From a virus: a DNA stretch of 64,000 nt. Position numbers and translations under genes: made by a program. A model generated the notes under the pieces. That model was not told the origin of the DNA and did no database searches. It saw nothing but the letters and a program-made list of their open reading frames with translations. The first letter of the stretch is position 1. Every line of letters begins with the position of its first letter. Below are positions 2,607 through 6,753 of the stretch, one piece after another. Where the stretch lies: positions 1 to 64,000 of the IMG/VR virus record IMGVR_UViG_3300037493_001906. One strand, 5' to 3'.

Positions 2607-3019
2607 ACCACAAATTAACATCAGAAGAATTTTATAACATTCTTAATATGCTTAAGTCAGAAGATATTGAGAATAAAATTGTTGCATTAAATCTAATTGA
2701 GAATTTAAATGCAAAGAAGAATATAGTATATATTCTGTTATTCTATAAAAAGTATAATGATCTTAAACTCTGGATAAGCAATGCACCTAAGCAACTACAA
2801 ATGATTAGGCAAAGGTGTATACAAACAGATGGAGATACAGATCAACAACTTAGTCTTTCCTTTAATAAAATATTTAGAATAGTTAGAACAACTAATTATC
2901 TAGATGAAGAAGATGTAAACATAATATTTGATATGTATGCTCTTGAACTTAGTAAGATTGCAGGAAGACTGCTAAACAAATCAACTAAAATTATATTAAC
3001 AATAGAAACAAATGAGTAA
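2603..3019 (+). CDS. helical-domain protein 2 of the VWA/MoxR cluster
   Basis: A 138-residue paralogue of the preceding product. The signature reads KSEDIENKIVALNLIEN, followed by KKNIVYILLFYKKY. The second half is again helical and ends in a short strand (KIILTIE), as in the sister protein. It starts inside the previous gene (ATGA overlap) and ends 8 bases into the VWA gene, so all three are likely translated together. No catalytic residues are conserved between the copies, which argues for a structural or adaptor role. Confidence 0.65.
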   Translation: MNHKLTSEEFYNILNMLKSEDIENKIVALNLIENLNAKKNIVYILLFYKKYNDLKLWISNAPKQLQMIRQRCIQTDGDTDQQLSLSFNKIFRIVRTTNYLDEEDVNIIFDMYALELSKIAGRLLNKSTKIILTIETNE

Positions 3020-4220
3020 TAAAGTAGAGCAGCTAGCCAAAGCTAGTAAAGACTTAATGCTTAGTGAGCCATTCTATGGAATGTTTCTCATTATGTTAAA
3101 TAAAAGATGGGATGACAATATCCCTACTGCAGGTGTATGCTTAAATGGAATCAACTATCAGCTACTTATTAGTGAAAAGTATTGGTCTACACTAAGTGAA
3201 AGTCACCATATAGGATTACTCAAGCATGAGTTACTTCATATAGGCTTCTTTCATTTAACAGACTATGCAAGTTTAACAGATAGAGACGTAGCTAATATAG
3301 CAATGGACCTAGAGATTAATCAGTATATAGCCAGTCATCTTCTCCCACCTGGAGGAATGGTGCTTTCTATGTTCCCTGAATTAAATTTAGAACCAAAGAA
3401 AGGCACACATTATTACTATGAAAAACTCCAACAAGGAAAGAAAGATGGTAATTGTCCTAACCTAAACAAGATGCTTGAAGGTATGGGTCAAGGACAAATG
3501 ACTATTAGTATTGATGTAAAAGGTAAATCATCAAATGCACAGATGCCTGACCATAGTACATGGAAAGATATGGAAAACTTGTCTGAAGCTGAGCAAAAGC
3601 TGATACAAAAACAAGTGGAACATATTCTTAAAGAGGTAGCAGAACAAGCACAGAAAGCTTGTGGTAATGTACCTGGAGAGTTTAGTGAAATATTAGATAG
3701 GATAAATCATAGAGAGGCACCCAAGTTTGATTGGCGTGGTTATCTAAGAAGGTTTACTGGAGGTTCTACCAAAATCTTTACAAAGAAAACCAGAAGGAAG
3801 TATAATAAAAGGTATGATGAGAATCCAGGTTTGAAGATTAAACCTAAGAGACACATACTTGTTGCTATAGATACATCAGGATCTGTTAGCTCAAATGAAT
3901 TAAAAGAGTTCTTGGGTGAGATGCACCATATTCAAAAAACAGGAACTGAGATTACAGTAGTTCAGGCTGACACTGCAATAAGCCATATAGAAAAATTTAA
4001 CCATAGAAAAGAATTTCAAGTCTTTGGTAGAGGTGGGACAACTTTCCAACCTGTAGTTGATTATTATAATGCAAACCTACACAAGTATACGTGTATGTTT
4101 TATTTTACTGATGGCGAAGCATCTGCTCCTACAAAAGCAAAAGGTAGAATGCTGTGGGTATTAAGTAGTAAATCAAATATTAACCCTGACCTGATAGGTC
4201 CACAAATTAAATTAAACTAA
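3012..4220 (+). CDS. VWA domain protein with N-terminal putative metallopeptidase (DUF2201-like)
   Basis: The 402-residue protein has two domains. Residues 1-120 contain HELLHIGFFH at 72-81, the HExxHxxxxH pattern of the putative metallopeptidase domain in DUF2201-type proteins. The C-terminal third is a von Willebrand A domain with a full MIDAS: DTSGS at 287-291, the GGTTF threonine, and the Asp of YFTDGE. VWA proteins of this type act with MoxR AAA+ ATPases in protein maturation or metal insertion, and such an ATPase is encoded 20 bases downstream. The phage pair may remodel a host or virion protein, but the target is unknown. The start overlaps the preceding gene by 8 bases. Confidence 0.85.
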   Translation: MSNKVEQLAKASKDLMLSEPFYGMFLIMLNKRWDDNIPTAGVCLNGINYQLLISEKYWSTLSESHHIGLLKHELLHIGFFHLTDYASLTDRDVANIAMDLEINQYIASHLLPPGGMVLSMFPELNLEPKKGTHYYYEKLQQGKKDGNCPNLNKMLEGMGQGQMTISIDVKGKSSNAQMPDHSTWKDMENLSEAEQKLIQKQVEHILKEVAEQAQKACGNVPGEFSEILDRINHREAPKFDWRGYLRRFTGGSTKIFTKKTRRKYNKRYDENPGLKIKPKRHILVAIDTSGSVSSNELKEFLGEMHHIQKTGTEITVVQADTAISHIEKFNHRKEFQVFGRGGTTFQPVVDYYNANLHKYTCMFYFTDGEASAPTKAKGRMLWVLSSKSNINPDLIGPQIKLN

Positions 4221-4240: not shown

Positions 4241-4377
4241 ATGGCAGCAAATACAAGAGTAAAGTTAAATTCAGAAGAGCTTAAGGATTATTTAAGACAC
4301 ATGATTACGAATAACATAGTTATTCAAGAGAGAGGTATCACTCCTATCTCATCAAATATTGAAGGAGAAGCTGGGAT
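4241..4377 (+). CDS. MoxR-type AAA+ ATPase, exon 1
   Basis: Exon 1 starts at the ATG at 4241 and codes for MAANTRVKLN and onward to GEAGI, the first half of the Walker A loop. The frame hits TAA at 4388-4390 if the RNA is not spliced, giving a useless 49-residue product. Joining base 4377 to 5484 restores GEAGIGKTS at residues 42-50 of a 468-residue protein. The split site was chosen because the last exon base is U, the intron then ends in G, and a guide sequence in the intron pairs with both exons. Confidence 0.9.
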
Positions 4378-4406
4378 TAATTCAAAATAATTTGTATATT
4401 GCAAAC

Positions 4407-5153
4407 ATGAAAAAATTATTCAAAGAATGTTTGCATAAAAATCTAAGTAATAAGTCAGGTATATACATTATAAAATGTAATGAACACACTTATATAGGTA
4501 GTAGTTGTAATCTATACTATAGATTAAAAAGACACGTGAGTGATCTTAATAATTTAAAACATAGTAATAAATTTTTACAAAACTTATATAATAAATATGG
4601 TTCAGACATTATAATATTTGATATAATTGAATATTGTAATATTGAAACTCTAATAATTAGAGAAACATATTATATAAAAACTATGTCACCTGATATTAAT
4701 CATGATTTAAATCCTGTAAAAAGAACTTTTAAAAAAGAATCTATAGAAAAGATTTCTAAAAGTTTAAAACAGTTATATAAATTAGGATTAAAAAACCCTT
4801 TTTCTAAAGAAGTACATAGATATAAACCCGATGGAAAATACATTGATTCACATGAATCATGCTGTGCTGCAGGTAGAAAATTAAATCTTAATGGATCTAA
4901 AATTTCTAAAGCAGCATCAGGTAAAGGAAGTTCATCTGGTGGGTATTTATGGTCTTATGAGAAAGTTGATAAACTAATAAAAAACATAAATCAATCTAAA
5001 AGAGTAAGATCTTTAGATATAAATAATAATGTGATTCACACATGGTTATCTATAAATGATTTATGTAAAGATTTAAAAATTAGTCATTCAGCTACATCAT
5101 TACGAATTAAAAAAGGTAATTATTACAACGGTTTAAAATACAAATTTATCTAG
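4407..5153 (+). CDS. intron-encoded GIY-YIG homing endonuclease with NUMOD repeats
   Basis: The 248-residue product begins at the ATG at 4407. A longer frame back to 4359 has no ATG and would run into exon 1. GIY is at residues 18-20, YIG at 29-31, the catalytic Arg at 39 (LYYRLKRH) and the metal-binding Glu at 86 (RETYYI). Two NUMOD-type DNA-binding repeats follow at about 130-180 (HRYKPDGKYIDSHESCCAAG) and 197-245. Such enzymes cut intronless alleles and drive copying of the intron. The host gene is presumably the same ATPase in related phages. The TAG stop is itself part of the intron guide region, so translation and folding of P1 may interfere with each other. Confidence 0.92.
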   Translation: MKKLFKECLHKNLSNKSGIYIIKCNEHTYIGSSCNLYYRLKRHVSDLNNLKHSNKFLQNLYNKYGSDIIIFDIIEYCNIETLIIRETYYIKTMSPDINHDLNPVKRTFKKESIEKISKSLKQLYKLGLKNPFSKEVHRYKPDGKYIDSHESCCAAGRKLNLNGSKISKAASGKGSSSGGYLWSYEKVDKLIKNINQSKRVRSLDINNNVIHTWLSINDLCKDLKISHSATSLRIKKGNYYNGLKYKFI

Positions 5154-5483
5154 TTCCAGGATAAAATTGGGTGAATTGCTGGAAACTCCTTAGAGTCTTA
5201 TTAGCTACAACATAACTAGAAATGGTAAGTGTGAATGCAGAAAATAGTAAGAATTGGACAATCAGCAGCCAAGCATAAATCTAAAAGGTTTGTGAAGGTT
5301 CAACGACTAGGTATTGAAACTAAGTTCCTCAACGGATTATCTCCAACTGAGTTCTGCTTAGAATATAAAATACCCAAGAGTGCCCGACAATTAAGTTTGA
5401 AAGACAACTTAATTGAAGATATAGTCTGAACTATAGTGAAAGCTATAGAAGTAAAGATAAAGAGCTTTACGATAACATAATTG
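5153..5483 (+). ncRNA. group I intron catalytic core (guide sequence to 3' splice site)
   Basis: This 331-nt stretch has no credible protein gene and holds the ribozyme core. Reading along it: guide sequence 5153-5159; P box AATTGCTGGAAA near 5174-5185; Q box AATCAGCAGCCAAGC at 5260-5274; R box GTTCAACGACTAG at 5298-5310; S box AAGATATAGTC at 5416-5426. GACTA in R and TAGTC in S are exact complements and form P7, the guanosine-binding helix. The boxes closely resemble those of the group IA introns of T4-like and Gram-positive phages. The exact subgroup would need a full fold. Confidence 0.88.
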
Positions 5484-6753
5484 AGGTAAGACTTCAACTA
5501 TTGTGCAACTAGCTAAAGAACTTGATATGAATTTTATCAGGCTTAACTTAGCTGAGATAGAAGAGCTAGGGGATTTGGTAGGATTTCCATTGAGACAATT
5601 TGAGATGTGTAAAGAAGGAAAAATGGTAGCTCAGACTATCCAAGTTCCTGAAACAAGAATGGTTCCTGTTATGGTTAAACAAACTATAACTGAAAACAGA
5701 CAAGTTCAGAAACAAGTAATGGGTGGTGATGGAAAACTTATGATGAGAACTGTTACTGTTCCTGTGAGCGTAGAGGTTGAAGTAGAGGAGATGCAAGAAC
5801 AAACTATTATGGTAGATAGAAATATCCAAGCCAATGATGGTGCTTGTATTTGGGTTGATGAGCATGCAGTAAATGAGTATGCTAAACAAAACTTTAGCTT
5901 TACAGGTAAGAAAAGAATGTCTTATTGTCCTCCAGAATGGATTACTGGTTTAGATAACAGACCAGGTATCCTTTGCCTAGATGATTATACTAGGGCAGAC
6001 CAAAGATTTATTCAGGCCTGTATGACTCTTATTGAGACACAAACTTATATGTCTTGGGAACTTCCTAAAGGTTGGACTATTATTCTAACTACTAATCCTG
6101 ATGATGGAGAGTATCTTGTTACACCAATGGATGATGCTCAGAAGACTAGGTTTGTAACTATTGACCTTAAGTTTGATGTTAATTGCTGGGCTAAGTGGGC
6201 TGAGCAAGCAGGAATAGATGGCAGGTGTGTTAATTTCTTATTGTTACATCCTGAGTTGGTACAAGGAACTTGTAATGCAAGGTCTATTGTTACCTTCTTC
6301 AATGCTATTTATTCTATAGAAGACTTTAGTTCTCAGCTACCACTAATCCAAATGATTGGTGAAGGTTCAGTAGGACCAGAGTTCAGCTATATGTTTACCA
6401 CATTTATCAATAACAAACTTGATAAGTTGGTAACTCCAAAAGATATTTTGCTTCATGACAATGAGCCTTATATCATAGGTGAATTAAGAAATTGTATTGG
6501 TAGAGGTGCAGATTATAGAGCTGATATTGCTAGTGTTTTAACTACTAGGTTAATCAACTTTACTATTAACTATTCCAATACTAATTCTATTACTCAAAAG
6601 GTAATTGATAGATTAATTAAACTATCCACAGATGAGGAGACTTTAACTGATGATCTCAAATATGTTTTGATTAAGAAAGTTCTTAATGGTAACAAAACTA
6701 AGTTTAACAAGCTTATGACTAATGGTGATGTCATGAGAATAGCAATGAAGTAA
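5484..6753 (+). CDS. MoxR-type AAA+ ATPase, exon 2
   Basis: Exon 2 supplies GKTSTIVQ (end of Walker A, residues 47-50 onward), Walker B as LCLDD with Asp 212 and 213, sensor 1 as TTNPDD with Asn 250, and DDAQKTRF, which suits the sensor/Arg-finger region. The order and the partner VWA gene fit the MoxR family, ATP-driven chaperones. An unusual Val/Thr/Glu-rich insertion at about residues 85-165 lies between Walker A and Walker B and looks like a long beta hairpin or stalk. The GTG at 5503 is not the start: it is codon 53 of the spliced protein. One base separates it from the next gene. Confidence 0.9.

Follow-up and report, generated by a model that had tools for sequence, protein, structure and literature searches.

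In a crAss-related phage, the gene for a MoxR-type AAA+ ATPase is, with high confidence, interrupted within its Walker A codon by a group I intron, probably mobile, that carries a GIY-YIG homing endonuclease. Our window is the whole 64,000-nt stretch analyzed here (positions 1 to 64,000 of IMG/VR record IMGVR_UViG_3300037493_001906), and the gene, the intron and the endonuclease all lie on its plus strand. Phages related to it have sister introns at three further sites of MoxR genes, so it appears that a single family of elements has spread and diversified across this one host gene. Judged from the sequences gathered here, the MoxR gene is a hotspot for an otherwise well-known type of mobile element.

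Phage identity and host gene

Several matches bear on the identity of the phage. A giant protein encoded on the minus strand, a 3947-aa open reading frame containing DYDID, matches a giant protein of cr55_1 by blastp (1e-15), and the matched crAss protein carries an RNA polymerase motif of the DxDxD type. The best matches of the large terminase subunit are to crAss-like phages, at ~25%. On these matches the phage is crAss-related, short of a formal placement in the Crassvirales. Its structural proteins match those of Cellulophaga and Flavobacterium phages, which suggests a host among the Bacteroidota.

The ATPase gene is split into two exons. Exon 1 (4241-4377) encodes the first 45 residues, runs two bases into codon 46 and ends ...GAA GCT GGG AT; exon 2 (5484-6753) continues the frame, beginning A GGT AAG ACT TCA. 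Joining 4377 to 5484 yields a 468-aa ATPase containing GEAGIGKTS, and translation of the unspliced sequence halts after 49 aa. Homologous uninterrupted genes are present in contigs L005-L016 of our comparison set. The spliced protein has both a Walker A motif (GEAGIGKTS) and a Walker B motif (LCLDDYTR), and its score against PHROG 1297, an ATPase family, rises from 87 bits unspliced to 107 bits spliced. When the family profile is compared with solved structures, midasins come out best (9e-18), in the MoxR/dynein-related AAA clade, and Pfam AAA_5 scores 21.9 bits, slightly below its cut-off of 22. By these comparisons the host gene is a MoxR-type AAA+ ATPase. The initial annotation had named such a host gene and placed the intron in its Walker A loop, with exon 1 ending at 4377 and exon 2 beginning at 5484, and all of this stands. 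The intron accounts for the split appearance of the ATPase gene in these crAss-related phages. Residues ~92-160 of the spliced window protein include an insertion of ~65 residues, with V, Q, E and T abundant in it, and many relatives do not have this insertion.

Intron boundaries and ribozyme core

The intron spans 4378-5483 (1106 nt), starting TAATTCAAAATAA and ending ...AATTG, with G5483 as its terminal base. A targeted Rfam scan with permissive filters, the kind of search proposed with the initial annotation, assigns it to the group I model RF00028 with a score of 79.6 bits (E = 2.9e-20), the cut-off being 50. Across the 118-kb phage record, no second RF00028 match accompanies it. The Rfam alignment places the core, P3 to P9.2, at 5160-5483. 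The P7 strands GACTA (5305-5309) and TAGTC (5422-5426) can be read directly in the window, in keeping with the core boxes and P7 complement noted initially, and the alignment together with strand coordinates puts P8 at 5387-5415, P9 at 5431-5448 and P9.2 from 5449 onward. A 69-nt insertion separates the 5' strand of P7 from the 3' strand of P3, and in relatives a helix there covaries; extra helices P7.1/P7.2 at this place mark subgroup IA, to which the intron may belong as judged with a general group I model.

Pairings with both exons are also present. The last seven bases of exon 1, CTGGGAT (4371-4377), pair with the internal guide sequence GTTCCAG (5153-5159) to form a 7-bp P1 with U4377.G5153 at the splice site, and no other match to the exon end within the 1106-nt intron is as long. 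The P1 is as initially described; the P10 proves longer than first claimed, with TTTATCT (5145-5151) pairing with AGGTAAG (5484-5490) at the start of exon 2 over 7 bp rather than 5, G.U pairs counted. Because shuffled exon ends give a 7-bp P1 by chance in the searched segment in ~2% of cases per intron, the letters of P1 and P10 are in themselves modest evidence. The case for an intron is carried by the core model, the join of the reading frame and covariation across relatives. On these grounds we identify 4378-5483 as a group I intron that splits the Walker A codon and that we predict to be spliced from the transcript.

Related introns at four sites of MoxR

Searches of named phages with the spliced window ATPase gave no match, and a relative used as query gave distant matches only, so our comparison set consists of uncultivated contigs. 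The MoxR family in IMG/VR has hundreds of members, with at least 545 confirmed matches. With the endonuclease as query, 24 contigs were recovered whose intron sits at this Walker A codon (hereafter site A), and the site A 5' junction pattern is found within MoxR in at least 29 other uncultivated phage contigs, those 24 included. Four of the 33 junction-pattern matches (L187, L189, L207 and L211) lay outside MoxR and were discarded. The first 8 intron bases are the same in the window and in the other site A introns examined. Three further sites are occupied in MoxR genes: site B after ...EL[GS]D, site C after DDYTR and site D after DDYTRAD, two of the three being just past Walker B. Some MoxR genes carry introns at sites A and D together. 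Neither these sites, nor those in the neighboring gene described below, nor the endonuclease featured in the initial annotation.

At each site the introns pair with their local exon. Among 32 introns from the four sites, 30 have a 7-bp P1, and the P1 at site C is 6 bp (the automatic anchor used for this survey overlooked the P1 of L058). Within site A, P1 covaries: at position -2 the window has A-U where most others have C-G, and at position -6 the pair is U-A, A-U or G-C. P1 covaries within sites B and D as well. P10 is as long as 11 bp at sites B and D; many site A relatives have just 3 contiguous pairs in it, followed by a bulge. In an alignment of 14 related introns, 25 of 38 consensus pairs of the core show compensatory change, meaning that both sides are altered in at least one sequence; the P7 strands are invariant.

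Some of these introns hold additional sequence. In contig L024 (approximately 4444-4575) a site A intron has a ~130-nt insert in the P7.1/P7.2 region that resembles a tRNA-Leu, with a 7-bp acceptor, a D arm, a T arm (GGTTCGAGTCC) and an enlarged anticodon region; ARAGORN accepts it solely if a 41-nt anticodon-loop intron is allowed. Other inserts occur at the same place in L040-L042 and L045. Separately, one stretch of L093 (3276-7109) contains three copies of the same core type near genes other than MoxR and DUF2201.

Introns in the neighboring DUF2201/VWA gene

MoxR-type ATPases are often paired with VWA proteins. Here a VWA-domain partner adjoins MoxR: the gene immediately upstream (3012-4220, plus strand) encodes DUF2201_N, a putative metallopeptidase, together with a DUF2201 VWA-like domain (PF13203, 63 bits; PF09967, 58 bits). 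It is intronless in the window. In three relatives (L030, L057 and L173) the DUF2201 gene has an intron inside its HExxH zinc motif, with the join restoring KHELLHIAF or QHELLHIAF, and L030 has a second whose join falls at HGRGG|TDFQPV; we class these as probable group I introns, and their matches to the core profile are weak. Where they carry endonucleases, these are LAGLIDADG-like as read from their motif, and the 296-nt intron of L057 is without one. PHROG 1314 is labelled HNH endonuclease, yet its member at 3012-4220 is the DUF2201 metallopeptidase/VWA protein, and many named phage records carry the same HNH label on DUF2201-like matches.

The homing endonuclease and its relatives

The loop of P1 holds a GIY-YIG homing endonuclease gene (4407-5153, 248 aa), which scores 33.0 bits against PF01541 (cut-off 22.6) and 81.2 bits against TIGR01453, the group I intron endonuclease model (cut-off 56). 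The end of the gene overlaps the P10 strand, and the last base of its TAG stop codon is the first base of the guide sequence (5153). A tree of the endonucleases has one supported clade each for site A, site B, site D and a free-standing group, F. Related GIY-YIG genes stand free between the DUF2201 and MoxR genes in L016, L052, L053, L063-L069, L047-L049 and L108, and the position of the group F genes suggests that they may target MoxR. At site C, the endonuclease frame of L019 (2816-3955, 379 codons) continues across the guide sequence and the greater part of the ribozyme core, so that coding sequence and catalytic RNA overlap.

Empty and occupied alleles

Intronless alleles in related phages, which the initial annotation suggested looking for, are numerous: they make up the majority of relatives retrieved by host gene. 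These counts are not convertible to a frequency of occupancy, as endonuclease searches favor occupied alleles and the MoxR ranking favors uninterrupted ones. Pairs of alleles with and without a given intron can be compared. L019, with its site C intron, and the empty L005 are 94.6% identical up to the exact 5' splice site and 91% identical downstream from 12 nt into exon 2. L044, occupied at sites A and D, and L038, occupied at A only, share ~94% identity on both sides of the site D intron. In a further pair, L038 and L052, which are ~93% identical overall, identity rises to 100% over the 164 nt that lead up to the site A junction, and the junction itself has four synonymous changes in nine bases (GCT GGG CTT versus GCA GGT TTG).

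Occupancy of site A is linked to the exon sequence. All 13 distinct occupied alleles have GGG as the Gly codon before the site, against 2 of 58 distinct empty ones (Fisher p = 1.8e-12, an indicative value, uncorrected for relatedness among alleles). The empty-site type reads GGTGATGCTGGTCTTGGTAAG, as against the GGGCT version of the codon in occupied alleles. Selection on P1 or co-conversion during homing could each produce this linkage.

These comparisons bear on whether the window intron still moves. An intron that splices but has lost its mobility, its endonuclease inactive or aimed elsewhere and the element inherited vertically in the window phage, is an account that we consider unlikely, though it has some observations in its favor: the window endonuclease is 57% identical to its nearest relative and its activity is a prediction, and none of the empty alleles found came near to identity with the window's own gene, the closest being ~74% identical at the DNA level. 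Against it, the endonuclease frame is intact and its GIY-YIG motif residues are conserved among relatives, occupancy is patchy on the host-gene tree (the site A label alone takes 7 changes), and the endonucleases cluster by site and not by host lineage. We take the window element to be a real group I intron that is probably mobile.

Proposed mechanism

For a mobile intron of this kind, we envisage the following. In the transcript, the end of exon 1 would pair with the guide sequence as P1, and the core, with its G-binding P7 helix, would cleave after U4377. P10 would bring in exon 2, and ligation would restore the P-loop. At the DNA level, we expect the P1-loop endonuclease to cleave intronless alleles near the site, and repair would copy the intron and flanking exon bases into the cleaved alleles. 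Splicing, DNA cleavage and homing with co-conversion are all steps that we infer from sequence.

A different role for the intron, that conditional splicing gates the ATPase, and with it the paired metallopeptidase, during infection, strikes us as very improbable. Several introns do fall on catalytic motifs of both partner genes, and group I introns have been proposed to act as GTP-sensitive switches (PMC11878797). Yet the intron is dispensable, since most relatives retrieved by host gene lack it, and homing elements favor conserved functional sites in any case (PMC2988022). That the locus is a pseudogene or an assembly artefact resembling an intron can be set aside almost entirely: a first, fast search of the window with Rfam, run at gathering thresholds, did miss RF00028, but this was a filter artefact and targeted scans recovered the match at the score given above, the 5' junction is common to 29 other contigs, neither exon is broken, and compensated changes are seen in P1 and in the core.

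Beyond homing of the window intron itself, we offer a broader scenario tentatively, as possible rather than probable. One intron-endonuclease lineage may have jumped repeatedly within MoxR, giving rise to the four sites and to the free-standing copies next door, each time re-tuning P1 and P10 to new exons, with occupied alleles becoming locked into intron-compatible codons. The MoxR-VWA pair would then be a shared target because the catalytic motifs of both partners are unusually invariant in these phages.

Comparison with known systems

It is well established that group I introns occur in conserved phage genes, that GIY-YIG endonucleases accompany such introns, that co-conversion takes place and that one gene can hold two or three introns. 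The initial annotation considered MoxR unfamiliar as a phage intron host, and we likewise found no report of it in the literature searched, which lay largely outside subscription journals. What this analysis adds to the known phage intron targets is the MoxR-type ATPase gene and, probably, its DUF2201/VWA partner.

The td / I-TevI system of T4-type phages is a close parallel, in that it too combines a ribozyme and a GIY-YIG endonuclease in a conserved phage gene. The td endonuclease is encoded in a peripheral loop, whereas the window intron has its endonuclease gene in the P1 loop, 5' of the guide sequence; the window's host gene also differs, being a MoxR-type ATPase, and its phage is uncultivated and of a different clade. 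T4-type introns and the window intron have in common a U.G pair at P1 and a terminal G, and co-conversion is expected in both (PMC2988022). The related GIY-YIG genes found between DUF2201 and MoxR in other phages are reminiscent of the free-standing seg endonucleases of T4.

Nearer to our phage, crAss-like phages of the delta and zeta groups have introns and inteins, with group I introns in MCP, PolB, primase and ATP_43b (PMC7886860). These phages resemble the window in being crAss-related with group I introns in core genes, but MoxR and DUF2201/VWA are absent from the hosts named there. An AAA protein of cr55_1, a candidate for ATP_43b, matches the window ATPase over 21 generic P-loop columns only. 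Multiple introns in one phage gene, as in MoxR here, are likewise found in Bastillevirinae and Twort phages, which have two or three group I introns per gene in DNA polymerase or terminase (PMC11878797). What sets MoxR apart from those cases is that one GIY-YIG intron family is found at four sites of one gene, with endonucleases clustered by site. Dozens of related introns, four sites in a single gene and empty alleles alongside them amount to a natural experiment, one that lets guide-sequence evolution, the locking of exon codons and spread from site to site be read directly.
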